From Byssothecium circinans (taxonomy: Eukaryota > Ascomycota > Dothideomycetes > Pleosporales > Massarinaceae): DNA of 58,505 bases. The stretch covers positions 1 to 58,505 of the forward strand of contig ML977064.1 in the NCBI GenBank assembly GCA_010015675.1, read 5' to 3'. A model generated the notes under the pieces. It worked only from the letters and a program-made list of their open reading frames with translations, had not been told where the DNA came from and searched no databases. Both the position numbers and the translations under genes were made by a program. Of the stretch, positions 23,078-58,505 are shown one piece after another (the stretch's first letter is position 1; each line of letters begins with the position of its first letter).

Positions 23078-23147
23078 AGCTAGCCGTAATAGCTTTCGGC
23101 CACCTAGACCTTTCGGCCACAACACCAAATCGGCCACCCCTCAGAAA
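23078..23147 (+). repeat. Left terminal inverted repeat of H with 17-bp units
   Basis: CGGCCAC starts at 23097, 23114 and 23131, exactly 17 bp apart, after the outer AGCTAGCCGTAATAGC. The partner is at 24795-24863 in inverse orientation, where the three cores have become CAGCTAC, TAGCTAC and CAGCTAC (read from that end). Confidence 0.9.
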
Positions 23148-23569
23148 TCAACGTAATAATTCAGCCAGCCTAGTTACAATTGCCACTCAATACACATAGA
23201 TTGCAGAGTTTTTGCTGCCACTTCTGCTGCCAGTTTTTCTGCCTCTTTTTCTCTGTCAGGACTTTTGTTTTATTGCTCCATAAGGGCAGAAGCCTGCTTG
23301 GCTATCATGATTTGATCTATGCTAGCAAAGCGTTGATTTGGGTCTATACGAACCCTTTTCTATAGTTATTAAGGCTTAAGGGCCTTAAGTTAGCTCTAGA
23401 GTCTTTTATTCTCTACTTTTAGCATTACTAAGTGTGTATTTACTACTATAATTACCTTGCTAGCTTTCTTAAACAGTTAGTGAACCTTATGGCTTAATTT
23501 CTTAGTACTGTGGAGCTACCTTTAAGCTATAAATAGATCCTAAGGGCCGTAAGGGGTAGAGAGATAGCT

Positions 23570-24480
23570 CTTAGTAAGATAAGCTTAATCCTAGCAAAGG
23601 GGCGTAATAGGCTTTTAAGCAACTTAAGATAAGTTAACTACGCGCTTAATATTTAATAGGTAGATGCCTGTAGTAGCCTACCTACTATAAATTACTCTCT
23701 TAGTAATTGCAGCCTCTCTAGTAGCGTTATAGGTAGTAATAAATTATTCCTTTTTAACTAGGGTAGTATCATCTAGGTAGGATAACTCCTAGATCTGCTA
23801 GTAATAGAATTATTTTACTAATAAAAAAACTAAGAGATCTAGGGGCTATAGAACGTATAAGGAGTGTATAGGGAGAAATAGAAGCTTAACCTTATTCTAC
23901 TTATAGATCTATAGGAAATCTAGGTCTATATAGCTGCTATAACTATCTAAGATTAGCATCCGCTAGTAATCCTCTAAGGATGTAGTTTTTAGTAGAAATA
24001 CGTGTTATAGCTACTTAGCGCTAATCACATTAGATGTCTAGCCATTCTCTAAAGTTACGTATAGCTAGTTAGGTATAGTTAATGGAAACTAGGTGCTCTA
24101 TAGGTTTTTACCTTTAAAAATAATCCCTAGCTGCAGCTTTCTCCCTGTTATAGAAACGCACTTAATTATTAAAGCCTACTTATAATTCTCTAGAGACTAA
24201 TAGTAAGCCTTTATCTTCTAACTACTAGTAAGTACTCTAGTATTTATATATACACCTAGGGCCTTACTAGTCTTATCTATATTCTACGTATCCTTATTAC
24301 GTATATTTAGCTTAACGCGGACCTGCTTATAGAGCTTAAGAAACTCGCGTATTACCTTCTAAGTTGCTCCCTTAGCTCTTACAGCCTCAATTTTCCTACC
24401 TATAATAGAGGTAACGCGTGGGTTGCGTTTAATAAAGAAAGATATCTATAGTTTACTTACTAGCTTATTATTACTATTTA
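23570..24480 (-). pseudogene. Decayed Fot1/pogo-type transposase of element H
   Basis: In the minus direction a DDE_1-type transposase can be followed through many stops. Near 23925-23965 it reads RMLILDSYSSY, matching the family's second catalytic Asp in (L)LILDGHxSH. Next comes a frame resembling LLFLPxHSxxVLQPLDL near 23850-23905. Upstream are residues resembling the GWTSN block (about 24040). Stops are mostly TAG/TAA where Trp or Gln would be expected, as RIP produces. It cannot encode an active protein. Its sequence differs clearly from the transposases of A, B and C, so it is a separate lineage. Confidence 0.8.
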
Positions 24481-24794
24481 ATCGCAGGATTTAATTCGCC
24501 ATTTCTCGTGCGCGAGCGTGGGAGGGAGGGCAGGCACGTGTGTCCTCTTCAAGAATCTAATTTGCAAGAAATTCCTCTTATAAGGGGGTTAATCGCTATA
24601 GGTGTTAAAGGCTATAGCGCATATTAATACTGCCCTATAATTAGTGCTATAACGTAGTTTAAGGGATTACGTAGGCCTTTATAGCTGCTCTCTAGCTTTT
24701 ATAAATGCTAGCATTAAGATTATTAATAGCTGATTGAATTATGATTTCACGGTTATCCATTTTAATGCGTTGCGTAGAGAGAAAATGCGTGATT

Positions 24795-24863
24795 TTCTAA
24801 AGGGTAGCTGATTTAGTGTTGTAGCTAAAAGGTCTAGGTAGCTGAAAGCTATTACGGCTAGCT
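24795..24863 (-). repeat. Right terminal inverted repeat of H (RIP-mutated)
   Basis: Its reverse complement matches the left repeat base for base apart from C-to-T and G-to-A changes, mostly in the CGGCCAC cores. The outer 20 bp are perfect. Confidence 0.9.
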
Positions 24864-24865
24864 TA

Positions 24866-26194
24866 GTAATACTAAAAAGTAGAGACTACGTAAGGCTAAA
24901 CTAGTAGCTTTTTAAAAGTATAGTAGTGCGCACAGACTATTAGTACTTATACTATATTCTTTAGCCTTAAGCAGCCTTCATATCATTAGCACGCGAAAGT
25001 GGCGAGCCTTATATTTAGCTTTAACACCCTACACTTATTAGGATTAGGCTTAGGGTAGTTAACGTAGCTTCTTTAACGCTAGAGATTGTAGTAAAACTAT
25101 ATGGCTAGTTCAGCTTGCTCTTACTACTATAGTAATTAGACTGCTATCAATTTATTCTTTTCTTTCTTTGGATGCGAGGTAGAAGCGCATATTTTTCATG
25201 TAGGCAGACTTTATCCACTAGCATGCAGGTAAGCTGCGCTATAAGTAGTAAGCCCTTATCTTTAACTCGCCTAGGCTAAAGATTATAGTAAAATCTAAAT
25301 TAGGGTAGTAAACGTTGCGTAACCACGTTACGCTACTTTTATGACTACTCCTTAACGCTAGATTAAAAAACAGCTATAGTACCTTAAGGTCCCGTATTAG
25401 TAATTAGTCCGCTACATCTTCTCTCCTTAACTTATTTAGATGTGAGGTAGAAATATGTTTTTTACACAGTTCTATATGCGCTTCTATTCTTAGGCCTATC
25501 TCACTTGGACTCCTAAGGTCCTCATCTAGGCTAAAGATTATAGTGTAATATGGTAGCACCTTACGCTATAGGGGATAATTATTCTAACTCCTCCCCTAGG
25601 CTAAAGATTGTAGTAAAATTTGCTTCTATTAAGACTTTGCCTAGAACATGTAGCAGCACATCCCTACTAGGTACATGAGCACGCGCGTGATTCATGAGCT
25701 AGTCTTACCTAGACTCCTTACCTAGGCTAAAGATTATAGTGTAAATCTACCTTAGTACTATATATAGCGTCTTACTAGCTCTGACGGGATAAACAGGGAT
25801 CCCGTCACAGAGCTAACTTAGTAAGGTAGCCAGCACCTCTAATTAGTGCAAGTCTTCAAAAGTAGAGACAAAATTCAAAACGATCTTTAATTTTAAAGCC
25901 TACTTTTAAGCTGAAAGGTAACGTTCCTAGCGCGCGTAATCGCGACGTGGCCGTGCGCCAGCGGCTTAGGGGTCCTTACCCTTACTACTTAGGCTAAGCA
26001 CTAAAGTCCTCTATAGTCTTTAAAAAAAATATAGTTATTAAGTAAGCTATAAAGGGAAAGTCTAATTTTTTAAAGTATAACTTTTATATAAGTTTTACTA
26101 GCTATACTAGCGTAAGAGAGGTAGCTAATAGTAAAAAAAGGATACCTTAGTATATCTAAGTAATATAGTATAAAAGGTTAGAGTTTCTATAATA
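24866..26194. other. AT-rich decayed DNA with motif copies, no gene
   Basis: TA-rich sequence with no frame I can assign. It is probably the continuation of the 21.4-23.1 kb region, since it carries five decayed copies of the dispersed motif between 25078 and 25746. A less mutated GC-rich patch lies near 25925-25975 (CG-rich, GTGGCCGTGCGCCAGCGG). Confidence 0.6.
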
Positions 26195-26196
26195 TA

Positions 26197-28054
26197 AAGC
26201 ATTACTAAACCACCTACACTACTAAACTACCTATGATTCCTTAGTAATACTAACTTACTTAACTTTATTACTATTATCATCTATATTACTACTTAACATG
26301 ATAAACTAAGTACTAGCCTCTAACTTAAAAGAACCCTCTTTATCTACTTAACACGTTCTTATGTTATGCCTAGCCTTACCATAGTTACTATAGTAGTAAA
26401 TACCTAGTTATTACACTTTATATTTACCCTCTACCCTCGCCCTCTTATAGTTCTAAATAGTTCCTAATAGTTTAGAACTATTCTAGTCTACTATAGGACT
26501 ATACTATATAGTGCTGCCCTTCTAAAGATACTTACACTTACGTGTTTTTTACTTAGTTACTACTATAAGTTACTATTTAAGCTCTTTAATGCGCGCCTTT
26601 ATTAGCGCGCTACTATGCACTATTAACTTAGCGCCTTTAATAAGCTATGAAAGCCTACCCTAAGCCGTCCATAGTGACTAAGTAATAGAATTACGTACTA
26701 GCTTTAACTATAAGCTAAATTTACGTGTATTACTTAGTATTCTTAATTACCATGGCGTCTCTAGTAGTGGGGGTCCTAGCAGGGTGTATATACATATATT
26801 AAGGTAATTAAGTACTACCTGCGCGTTTAGAGGGACTAGCCCTATTACCTTAAAGGCCTTTTAATAGTTCTAAACCATAAATACGCTTAAAAACGCGTCT
26901 TTAAAGGCTGGTAGGAACGCTTCCTTATTAACGTAAAAGACGTATTAGCGCGCTAAGTTCTAAATAATCTTAGAGTACTTACGCTTAAGCGGCGAGAATA
27001 ACACTACATTAAGTAGCTAAAGGATATGTGATAAGTGCGTAGGTATATAAAGCGTAATAATCTTATTATCCTTATAATAATTCTTAAAATCCTAATTTAG
27101 GTAGCTTTCATGGCCATCTAAAATTAGTAACTAATAGACGCTAATAGTTTTTACCTTTATATGCTTGTTAAAGTGCTTTAACTACGCGAGACTAAGCTTA
27201 TTAGTTATCTATTTATTCTCTAAGACTAAGAGCTTTTAATTACGTAGTATATTAGCTTCCTAGTACTATAAAGAGATATAGACGCGTCCTTTATATATAA
27301 TAAATAGTGGGGTAAATGTACTATTTAAACATATACTCTAGATATCTATTACCTACTCTTTATCGCCTGGCTAAACTATTATAGGCCTTTCTTACTTCTC
27401 TAAGCTAGTAACTACTTTTATAGAGCTAATAACACCTATCTAAAAGCTAGTCTTATTAAAGTTATATATATTATTATTATATACGCCGTACTTTACTTTA
27501 GTATCCTATATAAGCTTAAACTACGTGCTAACTACCTTAGGATCTTCCTATAGTGCCCTCTAATAGTCCTTTAAACAGTTCTAAACTATTTATAACTATT
27601 CTAAATAGTTTATGAACTATTCTACCTAGTTAATGCCTACTTTCTTACTACCCTACTTGCGTAGTAGTTTATTCGCTATATCTAACACTTCATCTAATGT
27701 AGGCGCGAATCCTTGCAAATTAAGGTTAAGGATATATAGGATAAGTGTTTCCTACTTAGTTAAGGACAGTTTTAAACAGTTTAGTACCGTTTCTAGTTGA
27801 AACGGTATTCCTTTAGCGTATGTAGTAAGGACGCGAGGCTTAGCGTTAAAGGCCTTAGCAGCGCTTTGATAGCTTTAGAATTAGCCTCTATTATATGCGC
27901 TAAGGGTAAGCTATAGTCTGCCTTCATGTTAGAGTCGTTCAGACCTTTATTGTTAAGGCATTTTCGTGTTAAAGATAGAGTTAGTATTGCTAAGGAATCA
28001 TAGGCGGTTTAGTAGTGTAGGCGGTTTAGTAGTATAAGCGGTTTAGTAGTACTT
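26197..28054 (-). mobile_element. Pogo-type DNA transposon A
   Basis: A 1858-bp element between TA dinucleotides (26195-26196, 28055-28056). The terminal repeats contain 17-bp units ACTACTAAACCGCCTAC: two at the left end and three at the right, followed inward by GATTCCTTAG(C/T)AATACTAAC. The transposase frame lies on the minus strand. Heavily RIP-decayed throughout. Confidence 0.9.
26270..27990 (-). pseudogene. Decayed pogo-type DDE transposase of A
   Basis: Reading minus, LILDGHESYLN followed by DFKNYY (about 27080-27130) is the catalytic DDE_1 block. About 35 residues later comes LLNVVLFSPLKRKYSKII, the family's QPLDV.xFSPLK block. The same order of blocks is found in B and C, so the three are close relatives. 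Stops interrupt the frame many times, mostly TAG and TAA. The C-terminal part in the sister copies ends with a CCHC-like knuckle. Confidence 0.82.
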
Positions 28055-28056
28055 TA

Positions 28057-28398
28057 CGTTAACTTTTTACTATAAGTAATATTAATAAAAAATCCTTAGT
28101 AGCTATAAAGCCTTAGTAGATATTAAAGGTAATAAAATAACTCTTACTAAGATATACCCTTAGCTCTAAGAGATAATAATTAAAAGCTAAAGTACCTAAA
28201 AAAGTAAATATTAAAAATATAAAATTATAAACTTTTTAATATTAATATATAAAATAGATAGAAAATCTAATTTTTTAATAGTTAAATAAGTTATACTACG
28301 CTACTATAACTATATAGCCTAAATATTTAATATTTTTATAGTTATATAGTAAAATTTTACTATAAAATTAGTATACTTATATAAGTCTACTTTTATAG
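28057..28398. other. AT-rich gap between elements A and B
   Basis: No gene seen. Very TA-rich. Two copies of CCTTAGTAG 17 bp apart (28095 and 28112) hint at a decayed iteron array but are too weak to call. Confidence 0.5.
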
Positions 28399-28588
28399 TA
28401 ATATATTCTACTACTAAGCGTACTATACTACTAAGCGCGCTAGTTTTCCTTAGCTATACTAACACTACGCTTATTATGAAATACCTTAACTAACAAACTT
28501 ATTACTTATTTAATAAGAAGGTAGGATTAAGCTTACCCTTTAAGCTTACTATTTAGGCTAATTTTAAAGCCTCTAATACGCTGCTGAA

Positions 28589-29049
28589 TATTACTAAGGG
28601 GTATACTTGCTAAATCCTAGTCCATGTTAGGGGAGGCCGATTAGTGTAAGGTATATACGTTAGGTAGTAGGCTTTAGTAGTTTAAAAGGTAAATATACTA
28701 AAGCAACTAATTCTATAATAAACTATAGAATAACTAAGTATTAATCTAGGTAAGAGATAAACTATAGAGAGTTAACTATAAAAAACTAGAATTAGAAAGA
28801 TAAAGGAAACTTGTCTAGTCTTTATACTACTCGTTCTATTCCTTTAATAAGTCCTTAATCCTGCCTAGAGCTTCTGCTCCTTTAGTTCCTAGGATCTCTT
28901 CCTAATCCTAGGATCTATAGGATCTTTAAGCCTTAGCAGGATTATAATTATATAACTAATGCTCTAACCCTGCCTAGCGCCCTACTACCTAATACTCTTC
29001 CTAAGCGTATCATTCCTACGTAGCTGCGCTTATCTATTGTCTTGTAATA
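28589..29049 (-). repeat. 3' LTR of Gypsy-1
   Basis: 461 bp, closely matching 35726-36187. It is the 3' LTR because gag-pol reads on the minus strand and the polypurine tract abuts it on the inner side. Confidence 0.9.
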
Positions 29050-29051
29050 TT

Positions 29052-29066
29052 ATCCCCCTCTTTAAG
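29052..29066 (-). promoter_or_regulatory. Polypurine tract of Gypsy-1
   Basis: The minus strand reads TTAAAGAGGGGGATAA directly before the LTR, the usual second-strand priming site. This fixes the element's orientation. Confidence 0.8.
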
Positions 29067-29159
29067 GTTATCATCCTAATATCCTAGGAGGTATATCTAC
29101 TATGCCGCTTCTTCTTATAGCTAGTATATAAGTCGTACGTGTCCCTAGTTGCTCATGGT

Positions 29160-29860
29160 ATTATAGCCTCCTTTATGGTTTTACTAACCTTTCTCTAACT
29201 ATGCCTAAAGTTCTATCTAAGTTATTAACTACGCGTCGCTACTATTATGCTAACTAAATCCGTTCTTAAGGGTTGGAGATAACACCTAGTTACAAACATT
29301 ATTAAAAGCGCAAGCTTTATTATTTTATAAATGTAGCTATAGGTTAGTGCGCTGCTTACATTTAAGTTTATATTAAGTGCAGTCTATTTATTCTTAAAGA
29401 GGAGTAGGAGAAAGTATAGATAAAGAAGAAGAAAAAGTAAATTACACTTCTTTATTCTAAGGTAGAGGCTGCGTGGCTTTAGGCTAAGTCTACTTAACTT
29501 CGCGTAGAGCTAGCTAAGTTAGAAGCCTATAAGTGCTTTTTTATAAACTAGGATTATTACGTCTTAACTATAATAGATGCTGCTTAAGAGGTAGAGACTT
29601 TAAAGAGTATAGAGACTATCACTTTAGCTAAACTGCCACTATCTAAACTATTGTTAACTAACCTAGGCTAGTTACAGGCTAATCCTTCTTTAACCTCTTT
29701 TAATCCTTCTTTATCCTTTAACTTTTCTACTTTCCTAGCGAGTACGGAATTATTACCTCTAGATACTGCTAGTAGTAGTCCTTTACTAATTATTTATAGT
29801 CTATAAGATTTTATATTAGTTCTTAGGTATTCTAGCTATCTAGCTAGTCTTTCTACTTAA
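29160..29860 (+). pseudogene. Decayed counter-oriented ORF in Gypsy-1
   Basis: On the plus strand, opposite to gag-pol, a frame starts MPKVLSKLL (about 29200). It becomes Lys/Glu-rich, then Ser/Leu-rich (NPSLSFNFSTFLAS). It aligns with the better preserved copy in Gypsy-2 (38168-38880) and overlaps the chromodomain end of pol antisense. Many stops. Function unknown; see the Gypsy-2 copy. Confidence 0.55.
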
Positions 29861-32800
29861 CTAAGTACTTCTACTAACGTTTAAATTTCTATAGGTCCTT
29901 AATTTCCTTAACCTTGTAATTTTTATCTTTAAGCTTAATTCATGTCTTGACTTCAGCGTTTAGTAGTGCTAGTTTAAAGAGTAACTTATAAAAAATAGGG
30001 TATATACGTATACCTTAGGGGAGCTCTAGTTTAAACGTAACTAGTCCCTTAACCTCTAGGATTTAGAATAATCCTATTTAGAGGTTATCTAATTTATCAT
30101 ATAGCTATTTAGTTTTTAAATTTTTTTGTAATAGGAAAACTTTATCCCCCTCTTTAAGGGTTAGTCCCTTAAGCCTTTTTTTATTTACTAATTTAGCTAT
30201 TATAAGGTTCCGTTAAGCAATCCGTTAGCTTAATTCATTATGTAATTCACAAAGGAGTTGTGCCTTATTATTAGCTCTAGCTAAAAGACTCTTAATGTCT
30301 TTAGGATCCTAATAAGCAGTTAGCTCATATCCCTAGTTCACGTAATATAGTAAGTATCCTGTTGTCGTAGATCTTATACTATTATAGGCTAATTATACTG
30401 TTAGCAGGAGTTTAACTTAGTTATCCTATAGCTTATTAGCGTATATCCTTAGATACTATTCTAGTGTCTAGTTCGTCCGTTCTATCTAACTATCTATCTA
30501 TAGATAGAAGCTAGTTAAAAGCTTCTTATTAACTCTAAGTTTTATAAGGAATGTGCTTTAATACCTAGAAGTAAATAGTGTCCTATAGTTAGTAGTAAAC
30601 TATTCTAGCATACTATACTAGCTAATAAGTGCCTTAGTTACCTCGTAAGCTATTTCTTTAGCTATAACTATTTCTTCTATTAGTATAAATATTAATGCTT
30701 TAGTTAATTAGTTAATAATTACTAATATTAAGTTGCATAGCTATATAGATCTAGGTTCTAACGATTTTGGGAGCTTTATAACGAAGTCTATTGTAACGCT
30801 AATCTATAGGCATGCGGGTGGTTTAAGTGATTAGAGTAATCTATAGGGCTTATATCTCTTAGGCTTATTCTTAGAATATACTAAATAGTTGCCTATCATG
30901 TTCTAAACTGCTTTTTGTATATTAGGGATTAAGTATTTGTTTAAAATCTATTAAACTGTTTTGTTAATCCCTAGGTGTCTATATTCCTTAGACTCGTATA
31001 ATTTCCGTATTAGGGTTAGTATATAAGCTTCGCATAGTATAATCTATTATTCCTTATTATAGGGTAGTCTTGCCCTAAGGTAGTTAACTAAGTCATATTC
31101 TACCCTCTATTCTAGGGTTAAGCGACTGTAGTCCGCGAAGTTGTATACTTTTAGTCCTTTATAATTAATCCTAGCTATCTTAACTAATTAGGGTTAATTG
31201 CGCCGTAAACTGTTTCCTAGTTCTTAGGTAGGCTCCCTAAGCCTTTTATCCTATTTTTATATAGTTTTAGCTATCCTAGCTAGCTGTTCAACTAAAGTTC
31301 CCTAAACTAGTTGTAGTTAGTTGTAAACTAATCATCTATCTATTTCCTTTTATAGGATAGTATTGTGCGTAATAGGTTAGTTTATTTCCTAAAGGTTAGA
31401 TCTCTAGCTAAGAGCATCCGCCGCTCTATTTAGCAATCCTAGGCGATAGTGTACTTTAAAATTGTAATCCGCTATTATCTTAGCCTATCTAACCTATTGT
31501 TAGTTAAGCTTCTTAGTTGTTATAAAGCTTATTAGGTTCTAGTAATCTGAATATACCTCTACCTAGTATTTAGCGCCGACTAATTAGGCTTGCTATTATT
31601 TAAAGGAATCTACTATTGCTAGTAGTTCCTTGTTATAAACGTTGTAGTTAAGTTCTACTCCTAAGAACTTCTAAGAGTAGTAAAATACTAGTCTCTACTT
31701 CTTATTATTACCTTATTACAAGAGTATTGCTCCTAAGGCGTAATCTAATACATCTATTTCTACACGTAGTAGCTATTCTGAGTCATGCATTTATAATATA
31801 GGGACTAATAAGAATAATCCCTTAAGCTTTTTAAAAGCCTTCTATTATTCCTATCCCTAATAGAATCCCTTTTCCTTCTTAGTAATCTCTATAAGAGGCG
31901 CTGTAGTCTTTAAGTATCCTAAAATAAACTTCTAGTAGAAGTTAGCAAATCCTAGGAAGGATTATACGTCCTTAACTATCTTAGGTTTTAGCTACTCCCT
32001 TATAGTCTTAACTGTCTTTAGGTCTATAGTAATGCTGTTTTGTAAAACTACAAATCCTAAGTAATCCGTCTCTATAACGTAGAATTCGTATTTCTTTAGC
32101 TATAGGGGTAATTAATACCTCCTAAGCTTCCTAAGCACTTTCTTAACATATTTAATGTAATCCTTAAGCGTTCCTAAGATATATACTAGTATATTATCTA
32201 GGTACGTAGTTATAAAAACGTCTAAGTATTTATAAAGTGCTCTATTAATAAGCGCCTAAAACGTTATAGGCGCATTTGTTAATCTAAAAGGCATAACTAT
32301 ATACTTGTATAATCTATAATAAGTTTTAAAGGCAGTTAGCTATTTAAAGCCCTTAGCTATCTATATTTAATAGAATCTATCTTATATATTAAATTTCGTA
32401 ATCTACTTAACTCCTTAGAGGCGGTCTATAAGTTCCTAGATTAGAGGAAGAGGGTAGCAGTTCTTCTTTATAATATAGTTAAGCTATCTATAGTCTATAT
32501 AAAGTTACAGCTTTCTATTCTTCTTTAGAATAAAGAGAATTAGTAAAGCTATTAAGCTTATACTCTCTTATATATACCCTTGCTTTATATTCTTCTTAAT
32601 ATAAGTCCGTAGTTCCTTCTACTAGTCTTATATTAGTAGGTATATTAGTCCTAGGTATAGCTTCGCGCCTTCTTTTAGGTGAATCTTGTAATCCTAATCC
32701 TAGTAATCTAGTAATACGATCTCATCTTATTCCTTAAATAGATCTTGAAACTCCTTATATTCTAGTAGTATTATAGGTTAGGGTTCATCCTTTATAGGCG

Positions 32801-35690
32801 TAACTTTCTATATCTAAATAACTCCTATTTATGAAGGGTCCTTCTTATAGATCTTCCTAATCTTATAAGGTAATATCTTGCTAATCTATCTAGTCTAACT
32901 AGGTAAGCTCTAGATTACTAGGCTTAATCTTCTATAGCGTGCTCTAGCAACCTTGCGCGCTAGTTCTTAGCTAAACATCATGCCTTTCTACTAATTAATA
33001 GCAGGATTGTGCTTCCTAAGCTAATTATATCTAATTAATATGTCTTCTTCTCTAAGATCTATAATATTAAGGGATGTTATATCTTTAATTCTAAGTATAT
33101 AGAATAACACTCCTTAGGTTTCTAACCTTAAGAATCTATTACTATAGGATATTAGTCTATTATTAGCTAATACTACTTATATTAGACGTTCTTTATCTTA
33201 ATAGGGTATATTAAATTTCTTAACTACTTATAGGGAGATAATTGTCTATATAGCTCTGCTATCTATAAGCGCTATAAGCCTGTATCTGTGTATGCGCACC
33301 TTTACCTTTAGTTGATAAATTAGTAGTTCTAGGTGTTGTACGTTATATAGAGTTATTGTAGGAATACTCTTACTAGCGTAACCTTATCCCTAGTAGTATC
33401 CTAGTTTTTTAACCCTCTAGGTTTCTTTAGGAACTAGCCTAACCCTTACTTATTAGATAAGTATATCTAATAGCTATTCTTGTAGTAGGCTGTCTATAAT
33501 AGGCGCGCGTACTCTACTGCTAGATTATCCCTTCTTAGGAAACCCTTCCTAAGTTTCTCTAATAGGTATACTTGATATATGTCATTAAAGCACTAGTTAT
33601 AAGGCAAGTCAGCGTGACTTCCTTTATTAATAGCGTTGTTAGGGGCTAGGGTTTTAGGCCTTGCAGGGAACTAGGTTACATTCACTAGCTCATCGCCTTA
33701 GGCTATCTATTCCTAATGCTGATTATCTAGCATTGTTTGCTAGTATTGCATAGAATCGCTGTACTTCCTCTAGCAAGTGTCCTTCTTAGATTCGCAGGGA
33801 AGGGCGGGGAGTATATAATGTTTATAATCCTTATCTATGTATTCCTTTAAGGTGAGTAGGTTATAATCATAACCTCTCTTATCCTACGCGGCCTCTTCCT
33901 TACAGAGCGTATAGTATATATAGCTAAGAATTGTCTTACACTATACCTAATCTTTCTCTTTATATTCTTAGTCCGTAGGGTGCTTTAAAGGGTGTTAGTA
34001 TTAGTAATTTTTTATTTTATATTCTAGTATATTACCGTCTATTAGTCCCACTAGCTAGTATCCTGCGATATACTTACTTAGCTAATGCATCTAGCAGTGC
34101 TAGTTATAGTACTTCTGCTATCTAATGCATTTATACTACTATTACTAATTGCTAAAGTAATAAGTGTAGTAAGCTGCTACTAGATAGTCTTTATCTAGAA
34201 CTATGATATGCGACGTTCGTCTAAGTTATCATCTTATCTTATCTTATTTACGTTTATAGTAGAGACACTAGCCCTCCTAGTAGTAATACTAATTAACTTC
34301 CTAGTATAGATCCTTCTCTAGTACTTCTACCCTAATATGTTCCCCTATAATATATAGGCCTTAGAGTTATATAGCCTCTACTACTACTTTACTAGCTTTT
34401 TCGCCGCATACTAATATAGGTATATTGCAAGTTAGTCCTTTATGCGTAGCACTAGCATACCTTTAGTATACTTTTGTATCTACACGCATCTAAACTACCT
34501 AGTCTAGTACCTTATTCTTAGCTAGACCTTAGCTTAGACGTAATACTCCTTCTTCCTAGGGATTAGTTTTCTTGATAACGTTATTAGATAGTTTACATGC
34601 TTGATCTAGTTCTAAAGGCAGGAAAGGAGTAGGCTGCTAACGTAGCACCTCTAGTTTATCCTCCTTAGGTCCCGTTGCCTAGAACTTAACTATCCTAATC
34701 TTGATCACCCTAAGCTTGCTAGCCTAGCCTTAGTTCTTTAGGTAGTTTCTATAGAAGTGTCCTACTTTACTGCACTAGAGACATGCCTTCTTCTTAAAGC
34801 ATTCCTAGTGTTATTTGTAGGTTAGGCTGTCTAGCTATCTTCCCTTACCTTTATTAAACTACTTCTTTTATTAGACTTTATCTATTATTACTACATTACT
34901 ATTATAGTTATAGCGTAGTGTCTTTAGCTTTCTATATCTTCTAGAGTTAGGAATAATAGTTATGTCCTATTATTTCTTCTACAGCGCTCGTTTGTAGAGC
35001 TAGTTGTTGATTTAGGTAGCTAGGTTAATTATATCTTGCGAGTTATCTAGCTTATTATAATAGATTATCCTATCCTTAACAGTTTCCTTTAGCCTGTTAT
35101 AGAAGGCCGTGCGTAATAACGTATCATCCTAATTAATCTTTAACTATAGTTATTTAAACTCTGTTATATACTTAGCGACTAACCTCTCTTGCTAGATCTA
35201 AAATATCTTTTGCTCTACTTAGGTCTCTTTATTAAGTTCCTTAAATACCTTTTAAATCTCTTTCTTAAATGCTGTCTAGCTCTTAAAGATAGCCTTCATG
35301 TCATCTTTGTAATACTTTATCTTGTTCATGAGATAATCATCTATAAAGGATTGCATCTAAGTAGCTACCTTGTCCTTTAGGTGCATACTAGCTGCGAGGA
35401 TTTTATCTTAATCCCCTATTATAGAGTTAAACTAATAGTATAAATCTATATTAGTAAGGAATAGCTTTAAGCTATCTTATCCTCTATTATACTTTTCTAG
35501 CGCTATAATCTTTCTATGGGGTACAGTGTCCTTAGCCTAGAGTTAAGTAGTTGCCTACATTAATCTATTAATCTATTTAGCCTATTACTATATCTAGTTA
35601 GCCTAGTTAGCTATTACTAATACTAGACTTAAAGCAGGTGTACTAATACTACTACTAGTAGCACGTAGGATAGCAGGAGCTACTATATTA
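29790..35690 (-). pseudogene. Decayed gag-pol of Gypsy-1
   Basis: Blocks seen on the minus strand, in order. A gag zinc knuckle (34783-34745) has the last Cys changed to Tyr. A reverse-transcriptase entry block resembles ILFxLKKNRKL...DYR (about 32540). The catalytic box reads YLDNILVY (32203-32182), its second Asp changed to Asn. An RNase H block follows, EIDVLDYALGAILL (31766-31717). An integrase core resembles IDFVIKLPKSLEPRS (about 30800) followed by ILVIINxLTKALIF. A chromodomain near 29800-29950 could tether integration to marked chromatin, as in other chromoviruses. Trp and Gln codons are now stops at dozens of sites, so the copy is dead. Frames at 35189-35380 on the other strand are shadows. 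Confidence 0.88.
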
Positions 35691-35725
35691 TACATTTAGG
35701 TTCTTAAACCTGTAGGTAGTTAAAG

Positions 35726-36899: not shown

Positions 36900-37139
36900 N
36901 NNNNNNNNNNNNNNNNNNNNNNNNNNNNNNNNNNNNNNNNNNNNNNNNNNNNNNNNNNNNNNNNNNNNNNNNNNNNNNNNNNNNNNNNNNNNNNNNNNNN
37001 NNNNNNNNNNNNNNNNNNNNNNNNNNNNNNNNNNNNNNNNNNNNNNNNNNNNNNNNNNNNNNNNNNNNNNNNNNNNNNNNNNNNNNNNNNNNNNNNNNNN
37101 NNNNNNNNNNNNNNNNNNNNNNNNNNNNNNNNNNNNNNN
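36900..37139. other. Assembly gap (240 N)
   Basis: A run of N within element D. The matching interval in element E is about 319 bp, so the N length may not be the true size. Confidence 0.99.
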
Positions 37140-44480: not shown

Positions 44481-44522
44481 TATTATGTATGTTTAGGTTC
44501 TTAAACCTGTAGGTAGTTAAAG

Positions 44523-44997: not shown

Positions 44998-46334
44998 GTA
45001 GCCTAGTATTCTCTATACTTATATAGCTTACTAAGCTATTAGAAATCCTAGAATATTTTTTTATAATCCTTTTAGGCTATATTATATATATCTATATTTA
45101 AGATTTTAGCTTAATAGCTCTAATATTTAAATTATTATTAAAGGTTGAATCTTTGATTTTCCGCCAAGCAAAAAGTGGCCGCTTCAGTGGTGTGGCCGCT
45201 TCGGTGGTGGAATACGTTATACAAAGGATACGTCTATATCTTTTTATAGTACTAGGAAGCTAATATACTATATAATTAGAAGCTCTTAGTCTTAGAGAAT
45301 AGATAGATAACTAATAAGCTTAGTCTTATATAGTTAAAGCACTTTAACGCGTATATAAAGGCGAGAACTATTAGCGTCTATTAGTTGCTAATTTTAGATA
45401 GCCACGAAAGCCACCTTAATTAAGATTTTAAGGATTATTGTTATAATAATAAGATCTTTACGCTTTATATACTACTATACTTGTTATACATCCTCTAGCT
45501 ACTTAATGTAGTATACTTCTCGCCGCTTAAGCGCAAGTACTCTAAGATTATTTAGGGCTTAGTATAAAAGTACGTTTTTTATATTAATAAGGAAGCGTTC
45601 CTACTAGCCTTTAAAGATACGTTTTTAAGCGTATTTATATTTTAGAACTATTAAAAGGCCTTTAAGGTAATAAGGCTAGTCCCTCTAAATACGTAGGTAG
45701 TACTTAATTACCTTAATATGTATATATATACCCTACTAGGACCCCTACTACTAGAGACGCTATAGCTATTAAGGACTCTAAGTAATATACGCGAATTTAG
45801 CTTATAGTTAAAGTTTATACGTAATTCTATTACTTAATTACTACGGATAGCGTAGGGTAGGCTTTTATAGCTTATTAAAGGTACTAAGTTAGTGCTACAT
45901 AGTACTACGCTTATAAAGTCGCGTATTAAAGACCTTAAAAAGTAACTTAAGATAATAACTAAGCGTAAAATACGTAAGCATAAGTATATTTAGAAAGGTA
46001 GTACTATAGAGTATAGTCTTATAGTAGACTAGAATAGTTCTAAACTATTAGGAATAGTTTAGAACTATAAAAGGGTAAGGGTAGAGAGTAAGAGTAAGGT
46101 ATAATAACTATAATAACTAGGTATTTAGTGCTGTAGCAACTGCGGTAAGACTAGGCATAACATAAAAACTTATTAAGCTAATAAAGAGGGTTCTTCTAAG
46201 TTAGAGGCTAGTACTTAGTATATATTTTCAGATAGCAATACAGATGATAATAATGATGCAGTTAAGTAAGTTAGTATTACTAAGGAAAACTAGCGCGCTT
46301 AGTAGTGTGGTGCGCTTAGTAGTAGAATATATTA

Positions 46335-46457: not shown

Positions 46458-46459
46458 TA

Positions 46460-47525
46460 ACGTATTCCACTATCAAACAGCCTAAACCATCGAACAGCCT
46501 AAAATTCCTTGGCAAGGAAAATCAAATAGTATTATCTTAATAATAAAGCTAAACCTTAATATTTTCTTTTAAAATTTTAAACCTAAATAGATATATATAT
46601 AATCTAATAGGTATTAAATTTATATAGCCATAGCTTACGTAATACAGTAGTTATTAGTAAGAGAAGAAATCTTAGGTAAAACCTACCTTTTACTATAGAT
46701 TAATAGCTAAACGTTAGTAGTATACTATATAACTTTTAAGACTTACTTATTACCATATTAGTTAGTAGCTATTAAGTTATTATAGCGTGCAGCCTAGATT
46801 TAATGCTATTATAGTAGGTAGAAGGTAGGGGGTATAAAAAATTAGAAAACCTTCTAAATAAAGTTATATATATTAGATATCTCTACTTCCTTCTTTGGAG
46901 GAGGATAGTATATACTAGATAAAGCTATAAATAAAATTTAAAGTAAATACCTCTAAAACTAAAAGATCTAGCTTAGGAAGTATAGGTTTTTAAAAAATTT
47001 AGATACTACCTTATTATAAAGCTTATATAAGCTAATTTCTAGTAGGAAACTATTTATATAACTTCTATATATATATATAAAGCATATCTATAGATAAAAA
47101 GTAAGAATATCTAGCTATATAAAATTTATAATTATCTTTTTCTAATTTTAGGTATCTCTATCCTCCCTACGCTAGTTCTCTAATAGGTCTAGGCTGTACG
47201 CTATAATTTTAGTGCTAATAGGTGTATTATATATATATAAACTAGCTCTAAAGTTATTATAATTTATTAAGCTAGTTTATTAGGTATTGTAGGGTATAAT
47301 GCTTAAGCGACCCTACTATTCTCTAACTTATATAGCTTACTAAGATATTAGAAATCCTAGAATATCTTTTTATAACCTTTTAGATCTATATTATATATAG
47401 CTGTATTTAGAATTTCAGTTTAATAGCTCTATTATTTAAATTGTTATTAAGGGTTGAATATTTGATTTTCCGCTAAGCATTTTTGGGCTGTTCGATGGTT
47501 TAGGCTGTTCGATAGTGGAATACGT
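46460..47525. mobile_element. Short non-autonomous TA-target element E
   Basis: A 1066-bp element flanked by TA (46458-46459, 47526-47527). The outer ends ACGTATTCCAC match D, and so does the interior, including CTTGGCAAGGAAAATCAAA next to the left repeat and long AT-rich stretches. The 17-bp units between are different: ACTATCAAACAGCCTAA and ACCATCGAACAGCCTAA instead of the GCGGCCAC type. No coding frame. Probably mobilised in trans by a pogo-type transposase. Confidence 0.88.
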
Positions 47526-47530
47526 TATAT

Positions 47531-50800: not shown

Positions 50801-52982
50801 CTTAAGTAGCTCGCGCAATTCACCACCGCGCTAGGGCCGTGCGCCAGCTAATCAGACACCATAGGGTGCACCCGGTGAGCTCTCATTAGCCACCCCGTCA
50901 AGTTGACTTTCATCGCAACTTATTAAAGACCCACCAATCTTTTCACTTAATTTGGAAGACTCACGAATCTCTTCTGACACTCATCCTAGAGGCTCATGAA
51001 TCCCTTTAACTCAACTTTCATCGTAACCTATTAAAGACCCACTAATCTCTTCACTCAATTTAGAAGACTCACGAATCTCTTCTAACACTTATTCTGGAGG
51101 CTCACAATTCCCTTTAACTTACTTACATACTGCTGGAGACTCTTAAATCTCTTTACTAGATCCTAGTTTCTAAAAAAGGAAGTATAAAACTAACTAACAC
51201 CTGGACAAAGAAAACGTGTTGGCGAAACGCACTAGAAACCGTACTGCTAATGCAATCCAGACCTATTAGAACACCTTTGTGGCCGCCTCCCTTAGTAATA
51301 AGTTGCCTTAATTAGTTACTCCGTCTTAATGGGTACACTAAGATTAGTTGCCCCTAGTCCCACGCTTTTAGGCGGACGTACTAAAGCTACTAGATTGGCT
51401 TCAAGCAGGCTTTATTACTGCTTGTCACAAGGAACTTAAGACAATCAAACGTAAAGGCATATATAAAGTTCGCGCCCTCACTAAACTACCACCAGACACT
51501 AAAGTAATACCTCTTATGTAGGTCTTCACATACAAGTTAGAAGCCAGCTTCTTAGTAAAGTTCAAAGCGCGCATCATGGTAAGAGGAGACTTATAGACTA
51601 CCGTAGGTGATACCTATGCTACTACTCTTACTATCTAAATCTTCCGCGCTCTAATGGCGATTACTACCTACTTTAATATAGACATATGGTAATACGACGC
51701 TGTTAACGCTTTTATAAACGCCTTTCTCCCCTCACTAATCTAGACATAGGAACTAGAAGGCTTCTAAGATGGTGCCCACTACTAGGAGCTCATTAAGGCG
51801 CTCTATAGCTTGCGCATCTCTCTGCTGCTGTGGTACAAAGACTTTACTAATACACTAAAGGACCTCAGCCTTTAACTAATCCTTAACGCCCCTTACCTTT
51901 AGATGAATGACAAGATAATTGTATTCTTCTACGTTAATGATATCATCACTATGGCACTCCCTAGCTATTTGAACGCCCTTGATGAGTTTGAACGAAAGCT
52001 GAAGCAACGCTATGAGATCACTGACCTTCAGGGTCGTGATACTAAAACGTTCTGCAGCATTAACACTTATTGGGATCGTGAGAATGGTTACCTCTAGCTT
52101 TCATAAAGGGACTACATTGAGATAATCTACAACAAGTTTAAGGCGCCCATGAAATCCGCCTAGAATAAGACTCCGTCAACACCACTTCTACTTAAAGAAC
52201 TCGTCCCTTCTCCTAAGTCTAAGAATGAGGAGAACTCTTACTAGTACTTACAAATCGTTGGCTCTATTGGTTACGCTGCTGGTGCTACCTAACCTGATAT
52301 TACTAAAGCTTATTTAAAGCTTGCTGAATTTCTTACTAACCTAGGACCTAAACACCTCTCTATAGCCTACTAATGCCTCGCATACCTATACTACTCTTAA
52401 GACCTCACTCTATATTACTCTAAGGACCTCACCACACCTCATCTCTATAAGAAGGAAATAGATGAAACCGACTTCTTCGGAGCAACTAACGCCTCATACG
52501 CCGATCATAAGGCTACCCGTAAGTCCTCTTAAGGCTATATCTTCTTCCTCTTTGGTGGACCAATTGATTGGAAAGCAATACTCTAATGCTGCGTTGTTAA
52601 ATTAACTACTAAAGCCGAACTCATGGGCCTCTCTACTAGCTATACTGAGTACTATTAGTGGTTACGGATCTTCAAAGACCTACGTCTAGAATTTAATGAA
52701 TAGCCCGCCATGTACTACAATAATAAATAGATGATTCGCCTACTAACAGCTAATTCACCGTAACTCAAAACTACGCTCCATTACGTGAATATCTACCATC
52801 ACTGGCTTCATGAACAGGCGCTTCATGGGACTGTGTCTCTCGCCTACATTAATATGAACTCTTAACTAGCTGATGGGTTGACCAAGCTGCTCTTAAAGTA
52901 AAAACACTAAGAATGGATCAAGCTCCTTTATCTTGAGCCCATTCAAACACTCCTCCATGCCATTCAACCGACAGCTGACTAA
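47859..52982 (+). pseudogene. Decayed Copia gag-pol polyprotein
   Basis: The frame opens MSLKESIILKGTRNFKEW (47859), a typical Copia gag start. The protease block is WILDCGLDVHVSN (49152-49190), with Cys where Ser of DSG is usual. The GAG-pre-integrase block HILMGHPGANTL (about 49645) leads into the integrase zinc-binding Cys pair and core AIAIDLIAL (about 49835). Reverse transcriptase runs from about 51480; its catalytic box FFYVNDII (about 51925) has the first Asp changed to Asn. RNase H shows SYADHKATRKSS, then GGPIDWKA (about 52490-52580) and LADGLTKLL (about 52870). The stop is TAA at 52980-52982. Internal stops are nearly all TAG/TAA at expected Gln/Trp sites, so the copy is probably inactive. 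Confidence 0.9.
50905..51165 (+). repeat. 108-bp in-frame tandem duplication in the Copia polyprotein
   Basis: CATCG(C/T)AACYTATTAAAGACC at 50911 recurs at 51019, a period of 108 bp (36 codons). The two units are near-identical and a third, degenerate unit follows to about 51165. It lies in the linker between integrase and reverse transcriptase. Confidence 0.85.
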
Positions 52983-53891: not shown

Positions 53892-54110
53892 AATATAATT
53901 ATAATATTAAAAAATAATTTTATATAACTATTATATTTAAATAAAGAGATTACTTATAAGCCTTATATAGAAAGGACTTTTATAGAAGTAAAATACTAAG
54001 CTATAGAGTCTTTTTACTTTATATCTAAAAAAAACTTATAATAATAAGAAAGGAACCTATAATTTTTAAGTAGAGTTATAGTATATACTAGAAAAAAAAA
54101 GTATAATGTA

Positions 54111-55932
54111 AAGCACTATTAAAGTAGCTATACTATTAAAGTAGCTACTTTTCTTTAGTAACACTAATAATACACTTATTATAAAATACCTTAACTAATA
54201 AACGTAATACTCGTTCAACAAGAAGGTAGGATTAAGCTTGCCCTTCAAGCTTACTATTTAGGCTAATTTACAAGCCTCTAACGCGCTACTAAGGCTTTTA
54301 ACGTTTGTTATTAGAGACTCTCTATATACCTTAATAAAATCGCCTTTTAACTAATAATAGTACTAAACTGTTTAAAACTGTTCTTAACTAAAGAGGACAC
54401 GCTTATTTAATATATCCTTAACCTTAATTCGCAAGGATTTACGCCTATATTAGGCGAAGTATTAGATATAGCAAATAAACTACTACGCAAGTAGGGTAGT
54501 AAGGAAGTAGGTATTAACTAGGTAGTATAGTTTATAGACTATTTAGAATAGTTATAAATAGTTTAGAACTATTTAAAGGACTATTAGAGAGTACTATAAG
54601 AAGATCCTAAGGTAGTTAGCACGTAGTTTAAGCTTATGGAGGATACTAAAGCTAAGTATAGTATATATAATAATAATATATACAACTTTAACGAGACTAG
54701 CTTTTAGATAGGTATTATTAGCTCTATAAAAGTAGTTACTAGCTTAGAGAAGCAAGAAAGGCCTATAATAGTTTAGCTAGGCAATAAGGAGATAGTAACA
54801 GATATCTAGAGTATATATTTAAATAGTATATTTACCTTACTATTTATTATATATAAAGGACGCGTCTATATCTCTTTATAGTACTAGGAAGCTAATATAC
54901 TACGCAATTAAAAGCTCTTAGTCTTAGAGAATAGATGGACAAATAATAAGCTTAGTCTTGCATAGTTAAAGTACTTTAACGCGTATACAAAGGGCTAAAT
55001 AGTAGGCGCCTATTAGTTGCTGATTTTAGATAGCCACGAAAGCCACCTAAATTAAGATTTCAAGGATTATTATATTGATAATAAGATCCTTACGCTCTAT
55101 ATGCTAGCGTACTCGTTACACATCCTCTAGCTACTTAATGTAGTGTATTTCTCGCCGCTAAAGCATAAGTACTCTAAGATTATTTAGGGCTTAGCGTAAT
55201 AACACGTCTTTTATATTAATAAGGAAGTATTCCTACTAGCCTTTAAAGACGCGTTTTTAAGCGTGTTTATAGTTTAGAACTATTAAAAGGCCTTTAAGGT
55301 AATAGGACTAGTCCCTCTAAACGCGTAGGTAGTACTTAATTACCTTAATATATATATATATATACCTTACTAGGACCCCTACTACTAGAGACGCTATAGC
55401 TATTAAGGACTCTAAGTAATATACGTGAATTTAGCTTATAGTTAAAGTTTATACGTAATTCTATTACTTAGTCACTACAAATAGCGCAGGATAAGCTTTT
55501 GCAGCTTATTAAAGGTACTAAGTTAGTGCTGCATAATACAGCGCTTATAAAGGCGCGTATTAAAGAGCTTAAATAGTAACTTACGGTAGTAACTAAGCGA
55601 AAAACACGTAAGTGTAAGTATCTTTAGAAAGGTAGCACTATAGAGTATAGTCCTATAGTAGACTAGAATAGTTTAGAACTATAAGAGGGCAAAGGTAGAA
55701 GGTAAGTGTAAAGTATAATAACTAGGTGTTTGCTACTATAGCAACTATAGTAAGACTAGGTATAACGCGAGAACTTATCAAGCTAATAAAGAGGGTTCTT
55801 CTAAGTTAGAGGCTAGTACTTAGTATATATTTTTAGATAGTAATATTAACAATAATAATAATAAAGTTAAGTAAGTTAGTGTTGCTAAGGAAAAGTAGCC
55901 ACTTTAATAGTGTAGCCACTTTAATAGTACTT
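54111..55932 (+). mobile_element. Pogo-type DNA transposon C
   Basis: 1822 bp between TA dinucleotides (54109-54110, 55933-55934). Each terminal repeat has two 17-bp units ACTATTAAAGTGGCTAC, clean at the right end and partly mutated at the left, followed inward by TTTTCCTTAGCAACACTAAC. Uninterrupted, so it serves as the reference for how B is broken. Confidence 0.9.
54190..55870 (+). pseudogene. Decayed pogo-type DDE transposase of C
   Basis: Reading plus, LILDSHESHLN (about 55025), DFKDYY, then LLNVVYFSPLKHKYSKII (about 55130-55185) mark the catalytic core. A C-terminal knuckle-like block has all its Cys turned to Tyr (YSNYSKTRYNARTY, about 55740-55780). The N-terminal part would hold the CENP-B-like DNA-binding domain but is too decayed to outline. 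Multiple TAG/TAA stops. Confidence 0.82.
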
Positions 55933-56033
55933 TACATTAGTCTTTATTATATTTTATTTAAAGTTTTATATATAGCTATAAAGTTTAAGGTATTACAAGG
56001 TTATAAAGGTATAGCGTGCGTAGTACTATAGGC

Positions 56034-56096
56034 TTAGCAGTGCTAAGGATTTAGTAGTGCTAGGGATTTAGTAGTGCTAAGGATTTAGCAGTACTA
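56034..56096. repeat. Orphan array of 17-bp units
   Basis: Read on the minus strand, ACTGCTAAATCCTTAGC, ACTACTAAATCCCTAGC, ACTACTAAATCCTTAGC and a partial fourth unit follow each other at 17-bp spacing, with an outer TAGT. This is the layout of the terminal repeats of A-E, but with yet another variable half. I found no convincing inverse partner in the window. Confidence 0.75.
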
Positions 56097-56590
56097 CTAG
56101 TTTAACACTTAGTATAGCGTAACTACTAATTAATAGCTGCCCTACTAAGTTAATTAAAGCCTAGATTACTATAATAATATTAACTTATTAAACTATCCTA
56201 TCCCTCTCTACTTCTCCCCACCCTTAATGCATCCTATCTTAGTCACTGCCTAGATCTATGAACTTGAAACTCCTTCTCCATTGCAAGCGATAGTAGCCTG
56301 ATAGTCGTAAGAGCCCACACCCACACCTATGAAAGAAGATACGCTATATTATACTAGGCGAGATGGCGGCAAATAACTAGAACATATTTAACCTAGTAGG
56401 TCACGGTGTAAGCTAGTTCATGGCTTAGGCCACTCTATTAATATCTTACCCTTAATAATACTAAATTACTGAGGCATCTATAACGCCTTAATAGTTCTAA
56501 TAATTCATTAAAATACTATATAAACGCCTGCGAAAAAAATGTACTATTTAAATTTCCTTAGGAGCTTAATGTTGCGGCCACTTTAGGTAG
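56097..56590. other. Partly undecayed stretch without a gene
   Basis: Between 56200 and 56430 CpA and TpG are again frequent, unlike the neighbours. I recognise no product. A lone GCGGCCAC at 56575 resembles the D-type unit core. Confidence 0.45.
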
Positions 56591-56599
56591 TAGTAGTAG

Positions 56600-58210
56600 G
56601 TAGTAGTAATATAGCCTATGCGCCTTCCCCTATTTCTGCACCCTCTATAGAACTACTAGTACGTCTCTATTTCTTCTATTTCTTTATAGGAGGATTTGAA
56701 GCCTTCCTCTTTCTCTTTTAGAAAGTTTGTATAGACTTCTAGGTGTTTTATTTCTCTTATTTCTTACGCTCCTAGGCAGCCTTCTACTTAGCCTTAATCC
56801 TCTCTCTTCTCTCTCTTCTTAACTCTTAACCTTTGTCTTTCTTCTTGTTATTAAAGCTTAAGGACCTTCTATTAAGCCTTCTCTACCTTAATATGAGCTC
56901 TCTTAAGTTATTATTCCTCTTCTTCTTATTCTCTAACTCTCTTATATGCTTAAGCCTCCTATATCTTTCTAGGTGACTAAAGGACTGCTCCACCATAGTA
57001 CTCTTAACGTTATTATGAGTTAAGAGGCTTGCTCTTCTTCTTATATTTCTATGTAAGTAAAAGAGCCTGCCTTAAGCCTTATATTTCTATGTAGAGTAGG
57101 TTATTCTAGATAAAGATGTAATAGAGTAACTATTAAAGCTTCTAAGTCTCTTTACTACTCTATTCTTTTGCTACAGACTTAATAAGGGTCTGTATCTTCT
57201 GCTAATCCTTGCTATTAAGTACTAAGGTTAAGCTCTCGCGTGAATCTTATTCTAGTGTTAAGTACTAGAATCATTTAAGGATAGCTTCTAGGTTAAGTAG
57301 CTATAAGCTAGTTACTTTAAATAACTTTAGAATAGTTTATTCTTAAAAGGACTTAGTCTAGGCTTACTAGAATAGAAGAAAGAAGTCTCCTTTCTTTACT
57401 AAGACTAGGCCCTAAGCGTTATAGAGGTATTATGTAAGAGCTTTTAAATAGGCTGTTAAAAGAGGCTTAAACATCACTACATCTAGTAGTTATAGTGTAT
57501 AAGTTAAGTAAGGGGGAAATACTAGGAGGAGAATCCAATTCTAGTAATAGAAGTTAATAAAATCTATTATAATATAGGAACCATGGCTGTCTAGGATTAA
57601 TAACCTCTAGGATCTCTTTGCTTTAGCTTTAGTGTATTAATTAAACACCTGTTTAAGCTAGGCAAGGCTAATATCATTGTTAGTCTATCTATTTAGAGAT
57701 AAGCTAATAAAGACCTAGTGTTGTATAGCCTTAATATCCTTAACCTAGGCTAACTGGATAGCCTTATTAGCAGCTGCAAATAGGATAGCTAGCGGCAAAG
57801 CTAATCTATCAGCACATATATAGGCTAACAACGTTATCTACTCTCTATTGCTATCTTAAAGTGCTGTCCTTACTTCCCTGCTATTCTACATAGCCTTGCT
57901 AAAGATCCTTTTGCTTCTCCTAAGTACCTTAAGTAGGAAGCCTTTCTCATCCATATTATACGTATTATACTGCTTAATGTTGTATTCCCCCATCTTCTTA
58001 GTTATAAGTTGAAAGAATTAACGGTATTTATCCTCTAAATTAGCATGGTGGTGTACTTTATCTATTACAGGTACCTAGTAAGGTGTAATAGCCATCTAGT
58101 TACTATTAAGGAATCAGGAAACCTAGCTTTTGCTCATTAGTTGTTTTGCAATTGCAGAGGTAAAGTTTTGAACTATCTCTCTTATAGGTTGTAGACGACG
58201 AGCTGTTAGC
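56600..58210 (-). pseudogene. Pogo/Fot1-type transposase G, N-terminus displaced
   Basis: Minus-strand blocks in order. NTYNMDEKGFLLKVL (about 57970-57925) carries the first catalytic Asp. ISLSLNR*TNNDISLA (about 57705) matches the family's SxNGWT block. LILDSHGSYI (about 57598-57570) carries the second Asp. A block resembling LLLVFPPxxTxTLxxLDVVMFKPL follows (about 57530-57450). The C-terminal region (about 57000-56600) is Lys/Arg/Glu-rich and coiled-coil-like. This is a lineage distinct from A-C and from H. Decayed by stops at Trp/Gln sites. At its N-terminal side element F begins (58222), so the DNA-binding domain is missing or lies beyond F. Confidence 0.85.
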
Positions 58211-58221
58211 TATTCTATATA

Positions 58222-58505
58222 ACGTATTCCACCACCGAAGCGGCCACACCACCGAAGCGGCCACTTTTTCTTGGCAAGGAAAATCAAAGAGTATTATCTT
58301 ATTAACAAAGCTAAACCTTAATATTTTCTTTCAAAATTTTAAACCTAGATAGATATATATATAATCTAATAGCTATTAAATTGCTATAGCCTTAGCTTAC
58401 GTAATAAAATAGTTATTAACTAAAAAGGTACTAGTAGCTAAAACCTACCTTAAACTATAGATTAATACCTAAACGTTAGTAATATACTATATAACTTCTA
58501 GGACT
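58222..58505. mobile_element. Short non-autonomous TA-target element F (cut by window end)
   Basis: It starts ACGTATTCCACC next to TA (58220-58221), with two clean units ACCACCGAAGCGGCCAC, then TTTTTCTTGGCAAGGAAAATC. The following bases match D and E. The right end lies outside the window. Confidence 0.9.

Follow-up and report, generated by a model that had tools for sequence, protein, structure and literature searches.

Pogo-like transposons of the fungus Byssothecium circinans carry terminal inverted repeats (TIRs) assembled from tandem units of 17 bp, and one half of these units covaries with the recognition helix of the first of two helix-turn-helix domains (HTH1 and HTH2) of the transposase. 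The elements were encountered in a stretch of 58,505 nucleotides, referred to here as the window, which is contig C88 (ML977064.1) of a 48.4-Mb assembly of 109 contigs. Each 17-bp unit would constitute one bipartite site for the element's own pogo-type transposase, wherein the psq-type HTH1 would read the inner half, with the first residue of its recognition helix contacting base 15 on the opposite strand, and the outer half is probably read by HTH2, which is of the Tc5/CENP-B type. A change of specificity would come about when end units and the HTH1-coding segment are jointly swapped into an element whose backbone stays almost the same. A non-coding element would change transposase by swapping its end units alone. 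This explanation as a whole, with bipartite unit sites, reading of base 15 by HTH1 and specificity change by swapping, is considered clearly probable; actual binding, direct contact, the recombination route and cross-mobilisation are what we infer behind the periodicity, the covariation, the fit to a contact rule, the divergence concentrated, for the ACC clade and a single pair of group I, in ends and HTH1, and the many codes found on one interior.

The comparison covers 28 transposase families and subfamilies, 13 of them from group I (TIR TAAGCTAG, including element H of the window), seven from group II (mostly TIR TAACGTG) and eight from the ACC clade (including elements A, B and C). Group III (TIR TACC or TAACGTG) lies outside these rows, as do the mosaic locus L066 and three unusable loci (L067, with an N-terminus of N; L068, with R in the helix and no clear unit pair; L094, all N). 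The N-termini align through HTH1 without internal gaps. A mutual information (MI) scan covered 1500 residue-base pairs. Column 103, which holds the residue that opens the recognition helix of HTH1, heads the list for unit 1 when paired with base 15 and takes second place for unit 2; the top 18 of both units also hold pairs from the same helix (103 with base 14, 104 with 13, and 107 with 14 or 15). In unit 2 the leading pair is base 3 with column 176, where the recognition helix of HTH2 begins. In a tree-aware test, based on a DDE-only tree with 400 simulations per position and correction over 98 columns (Bcc, too short, was dropped), base 15 was significant after correction (P 0.007 in unit 1 and 0.012 in unit 2). 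Base 3 was not significant in this test (unit 2: 0.002 for the single column, 0.13 corrected), and reading of the outer half by HTH2 is only suggested.

The residues of column 103 and the bases at position 15 tend to pair as textbook contacts on the opposite strand, namely R, K or H with G, Q with A, D or E with C, and L with T. This rule fits 21 of 23 families; P and Y residues, which fall outside it, occur in five of the 28 first rows and in one of ten later families (L088, P with C), and L047 (Y with C) was left uncounted. The later families belong to group III, were unused in finding the rule and, except for L048, were read from the N-terminal end only. Eight of nine were predicted correctly in both units: base 15 is C where the helix begins with R (L085/L086, which are one family, L090, the left element of L078, L091 and L093) or H (L089, L092), and G where it begins with D, in the element surrounding an H-type copy in L048. 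In L078 and L048 a group I element intervenes between end and helix, and the pairing of the two is presumed.

At positions 11-15, units 1 and 2 of the same element match in 92% of the cells compared, versus 43% between families, as counted over 18 informative families after ten rows with identical entered units were dropped; the register of the units was fixed by the final CA, and agreement at positions 16-17 is therefore partly by construction. The unit thus appears to behave as one transposase site, as an earlier note on this DNA had proposed, and its further proposal that the variable half covaries with one CENP-B-like subdomain is borne out for HTH1 by the MI scan, the tree-aware test and the contact rule.

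Repeat-induced point mutation (RIP) converts C to T or G to A. Since RIP makes transitions only, the purine/pyrimidine class of each base is RIP-proof, and four such codes cover 831 of 947 ACC-type sites (the remaining 116 were left unsorted as other): YYRYYYRY (CCGCCCAC, 495 sites), YYRYRYRY (CCGCGCAC, 170), RYRRYYRY (GCGGCCAC, 144) and RYRYRYRY (GCGCGCAC, 22). The claim that variable halves differ between families holds for these transversion-separated codes; part of the variation first listed is RIP, in that GTGGCTAC of element C and GCGGCCAC of D and F are versions of one code, as are CCGCCTAC of A and CCGCCCAC. The counter-case named in the earlier note, halves that change only by RIP transitions, was not seen, as the codes differ by transversions beyond RIP. 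Position 5 of the conserved half was counted in 91 arrays (100 listed of 322 un-mutated pairs), where C/T occurs at 36/16 with CCGCCCAC, 10/6 with CCGCGCAC and 11/2 with GCGGCCAC, and T is invariable with GCGCGCAC (7/7); three of the 91 arrays are singletons.

Among ACC elements of different codes, transversions are frequent in the 5′ end and in HTH1 and infrequent elsewhere. Between L066 and L082 they affect 16/84 sites at codon positions 1-2 and 7/42 at position 3 of HTH1, versus 7/340 and 5/170 in the DDE region, with 14/85 in the 5′ end and 11/75 in the 3′ end. The excess at third positions of HTH1 in this clade (P 8e-5 and 1e-5) indicates imported sequence and not selection alone. In group I the contrast is sharp between L071 and L076, both incomplete loci, whose third positions differ at 19/43 in HTH1 versus 11/219 (P 4e-10). 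These sequence comparisons suggest that ends and HTH1 are swapped as a cassette in the ACC clade and in one group I pair only. One code per family was considered and rejected on account of mosaic elements: in L066 the left part is CCG-type and resembles L083, while the right end is CCC-type and resembles L081 (0/75 transversions in the 3′ end), with units CCGCGCA on the left and CCGCCCA on the right, and the two ends differ in code in two of ten un-nested end pairs (from a sample of 100 places listed out of 322).

Exchange of ends is also suggested for a non-coding passenger. Copies of the interior of element E, 84-97% identical, are found with units of the following codes: CAGCCYA, GCGGCCA, CCGCGCA, CCGCCCA, GACGGCCA, AGTGCGCCA (one unit, L030) and GCGCGCA. 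The match extends over at least 230 bp for the first six and over 89 bp for GCGCGCA, while several other copies match over 31-100 bp only. One 1.05-kb non-coding interior is thereby associated with seven codes, in addition to one two-code end (L034), so a code tied to the family stands only for part of the elements. Both ends agree in the E-type copies read at both ends (E, D, L025 and L056). Independent mutation of all units in a passenger copy is unlikely, and exchange of ends is the simpler account; swapped ends would allow another transposase to move the passenger. The stronger formulation, a modular code in which one residue sets one base, ends and HTH1 form a cassette, and a passenger outlives its RIP-destroyed helpers by swapping ends, has about an even chance of being correct.

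A number of observations weigh against this interpretation. The 28 rows are non-independent, eight being ACC subfamilies; some of the top MI pairs lie outside the HTH1 helix. Corrected values in the tree-aware test are non-significant for positions other than base 15, apart from borderline ones that involve columns outside the helix, namely position 8 (P 0.057 and 0.045) and, in unit 2, position 10 (0.032). The contact rule was formulated after the first table had been seen, and by raw fit the highest-ranking pairs are trivial ones, in which hydrophobic columns meet the invariant base 17, so that only the shuffles and the MI scan are informative. Exceptions to the rule are I046, where R occurs with A (against Q with T in the sister family I052), and II062 (K with G), II065 has Y with both C and T, and L087 has H with C in one of its two units, unit 2 being the exception. 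C is the commonest base 15, and among the nine later families only D with G discriminates strongly; support from these families is modest because most predictions are C. Position 11 is G in L079 and C in L066, yet neither HTH1 nor HTH2 shows a transversion difference, so some of the variable bases lack a counterpart in the protein, and this transposase may tolerate both bases. The designation of the variable half as a specificity code is supported by the covariation with HTH1 and too strong at position 11. Some elements have one unit only, at both ends of L077 and at the right end of L046. With regard to swapping, the contrast between L066 and L080 is weak (6/54 versus 18/402, P 0.05), and the seven group I pairs compared gave mixed results: a near-identical backbone with a diverged HTH1 occurs in L071/L076 alone, L049 and L050 show the opposite (third positions 5/43 in HTH1 versus 52/170 in DDE), and the others are intermediate, among them L042/L048 (12/43 versus 21/170) and L008/L040 (20/43 versus 31/170), in which HTH1 divergence is raised with base 15 unchanged.

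Divergence concentrated in the 5′ end and HTH1 of the ACC clade could also arise by linkage only, as these segments lie within about 350 bp of each other and might be co-moved by recombination without functional matching. However, divergence extends to the 3′ end, which usually bears the same code and is separated from HTH1 by over 1.2 kb (the 11/75 between L066 and L082, and 8/75 between L066 and L084), and linkage predicts neither one outstanding residue-base pair nor textbook contacts; it is judged quite improbable. Still harder to credit is a RIP artefact, in which the variable halves would derive from a single ancestral unit by C-to-T changes. The window units of A, B and C do differ from the un-mutated codes partly by transitions, but un-mutated copies carry the same codes and 831 of the 947 sites fall into four transversion-separated classes; a pure RIP origin was rejected when these purine/pyrimidine classes, on testing, did not collapse to one.

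The site might instead be a 17-mer in another register that spans two units, which we regard as unlikely. The CENP-B site is likewise 17 bp long, and the rotated reverse complement of ACC units resembles the CENP-B box consensus in having TTCG, found only in this rotated register, followed by G+C-rich bases 11 bp on; moreover, a sequence like the left half, CCCACCAAA, follows unit 2 in several non-ACC families. Against this, the distance between the two covarying bases, base 15 for HTH1 and, suggestively, base 3 for HTH2, is 12 bp inside one unit and 5 bp across the junction, and ACC ends in the window have no third left half unless a third unit is present. Homology of unit and CENP-B box through the rotated register was set aside, as the covariation does not favour that register. 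One site per 17-bp unit, read in its inner half by HTH1, is preferred.

Genome-wide, the pattern ACYAYYRAA-N8-ACYAYYRAA occurs at 947 sites and its reversed control at none, and when the spacer may take any length from 1 to 31, ACCAYCGAA pairs number 322 (control 3). Among 100 listed of these un-mutated pairs, 97 have a spacer of 8 (17 bp apart) and three a spacer of 25, that is 8+17 (34 bp apart). Of 28 loci chosen only for DDE_1, several of which represent a single family, 18 carry 17-bp units in their TIRs and six have TIRs without units; in four no TIR was found. Two further sets of ten loci have two units at both ends in four and six cases, and L067 has units at one end with the register off by one. 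In the families read, TIRs start at both ends with TA, the target; unit 1 occupies positions 11-27 of the TIR and unit 2 the next 17, 28-44. From TIR to TIR, elements of groups I, II and ACC measure about 1.74-1.87 kb. Arrays of at least five head-to-tail 17-bp copies are found at C2:849781-849891, C2:1370538-1370665, C26:62504-62674 and L047:734-825.

Constancy of unit length therefore holds for the ACC clade and does not extend to every pogo-like element of this genome. Loci L001-L004, L006 and L007 (contigs C34, C14, C20, C23, C32 and C18) combine DDE_1 with a TACAGTCAACTC-type TIR, 24 bp long in L001-L004, and are without 17-bp units; L001, scanned as an example, contains HTH_ABP1_N. Stop-free frames of 515-521 aa make L001-L005 appear recent. 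No TIR was found in the stretches examined for L005, L053, L054, L058-L061, L063, L068, L069, L070 and L073. L058-L061, L063, L069 and L070 encode DDE_1 proteins in open frames 265-606 aa long, a few of which have intact related copies, and are possibly longer elements or host genes. In many of L016-L038, runs of N fill the interiors of little-mutated ACC-type elements, as if identical recent copies had remained unassembled or been withheld; intact partners of such elements may be missing from the data.

The elements are pogo/Fot1-like, of DDE_1 type, with a CENP-B-like DNA-binding domain of two HTHs. DDE_1 was present in all six proteins scanned with Pfam, most loci having been chosen by that domain. 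HTH_Tnp_Tc5 is above the cut-off in L055, L048, L001 and L068, below it in L063 and was not found by Pfam in L066; HTH_psq is just below the cut-off in L048, and both domains are listed for many homologues. The structural models contain two HTH units, consistent with N-terminal psq and Tc5/CENP-B types, and the modelled DNA-binding domain has as its best fold match CENP-B with its box (1hlv), a fold like that of CENP-B 1-129. PDB sequence searches with single proteins did not return CENP-B, nor did one with the A1 profile, whose top hit was LCoR (E 0.59). The whole-protein model best matches Mos1/SETMAR catalytic domains, and the fold rows listed for it all come from the catalytic part. Among the best 120 of 761 relatives of one transposase, those with names are mostly from Pleosporales (Pyrenophora, Curvularia, Ascochyta, Boeremia and Paraphaeosphaeria), with one from Aureobasidium.

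Within the window, the region from 23 to 58 kb is AT-rich (26-45% G+C, versus mostly 45-61% earlier) and its genes are broken by C-to-T changes. In 23078-58505, period 17 forms 13 clusters and each other period from 8 to 39 one to four; in 1-23077, period 17 forms none. The original observation of 17-bp repeats is confirmed by this periodicity and by the genome-wide unit pairs, and tandem units are terminal in H and in A-F, the ends of A-F having been located with the frame of TA plus 8 nt, unit 1 and unit 2. Element H (about 23076-24865, minus strand), recognized by TIR pair, sequence and tblastn, is group I pogo-like, with a RIP-mutated transposase at about 23177-24862 (minus strand; 73% identity to an open copy in L048) and TTTCGGCCA as the right half of its left-end units. 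Element A (26190-28061, minus strand) has two units at the left end and three at the right, the code CCGCC[C/T]A with RIP changes and an HTH1 helix, KPRVLT, that resembles the CCGCCCAC families. Element C (54104-55939, plus strand) has units [CT]ACTATTAAAGT[AG]GCTA, the RIP form of GCGGCCA, and RIP-mutated transposase pieces within 54201-55871 (plus strand) with an HTH1 helix of GCGGCCAC type.

Element B (28399-46334, plus strand, 17.9 kb with nested insertions) has TACTACTAAGCGCGCTA-type units at both ends and a transposase in two pieces, 36148-36750 and 45217-46266, flanking D; matching units and the two pieces suggest that both ends belong to one element. As the gene is split at D, D (36749-45219, no strand assigned) sits inside B, and 28399-46334 forms a nest with more insertions inside both. 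D, with three units on the left and two on the right (CACCACCGAAGCGGCCA), is a 1.05-kb non-coding element enclosing about 7.4 kb of nested DNA, with N at 36900-37139. Element E (46458-47527, no strand assigned) is non-coding, 1.07 kb long, with units CACTATC[AG]AACAGCCTA / AACCATCGAACAGCC[CT]A and the interior shared by copies with other codes. Element F (58220-58505, no strand assigned), truncated by the window end, has two units CACCACCGAAGCGGCCA and the interior of E (84% over 287 bp). In an orphan array (56034-56096, minus strand) a 17-bp unit, which reads CACTACTAAATCCTTAG on that strand, is repeated in 3.7 copies; a fixed-frame scan revealed neither the 10-nt end motif nor a partner end. 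D, E, F and the orphan are without a transposase of their own in the window. The statement that all TA-target elements have 17-bp units thus applies to H and A-F, with unit number varying (three at one end of A and of D), and not to the orphan, which is 17-periodic and no element end. Likewise, the first nine bases are conserved because the transposases found in A, B and C are members of a single clade; other clades have a different half, and H, set apart in the earlier note, belongs to one of these. A 108-bp tandem duplication (50906-51119, 87% alike) lies in a stretch of negative GC skew at 48-54 kb.

It has long been asked how a transposase and the ends it acts on can diverge and yet remain matched. 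Within this single genome there are dozens of naturally occurring pairs and chimeras, together with a simple residue-base rule that makes predictions and whose exceptions are named, whereby specificity change, cross-mobilisation and escape by non-coding elements become testable; the results also suggest a way to predict which transposase moves each orphan element. Human CENP-B (1hlv) likewise has two HTH domains and is the best structural match of the predicted domain, yet identity is about 24%, the model places the two domains differently, the CENP-B box does not line up with the unit in the covariation-supported register, and the units here are tandem and terminal. Among titles and abstract openings listed in a search of the open-licence literature, none reported helix-base covariation or such end swapping. 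That 17-bp repeats are binding sites is already published: the fungal pogo-like elements Trem, Aft1 and Tan1, about 1.85 kb long with HTH, CENPB and DDE domains, are described as having TIRs of two 17-bp direct repeats, proposed as the binding place of HTH and CENPB (PMC2836289). The excerpts on DAHLIAE1 of Verticillium (1.9 kb, TIRs of 41-62 bp, internal direct repeats of 15-17 bp) call these repeats transposase binding sites and report no covariation with the DNA-binding domain (PMC3441728), and a similar statement on such repeats appears in a passage of PMC4188875. Beyond what the passages on Trem, Aft1 and Tan1 describe, the present comparison spans 28 families and subfamilies from a single genome, the code is matched to helix residues and exchange of ends is proposed; the helix-base matching and the end swapping look new.

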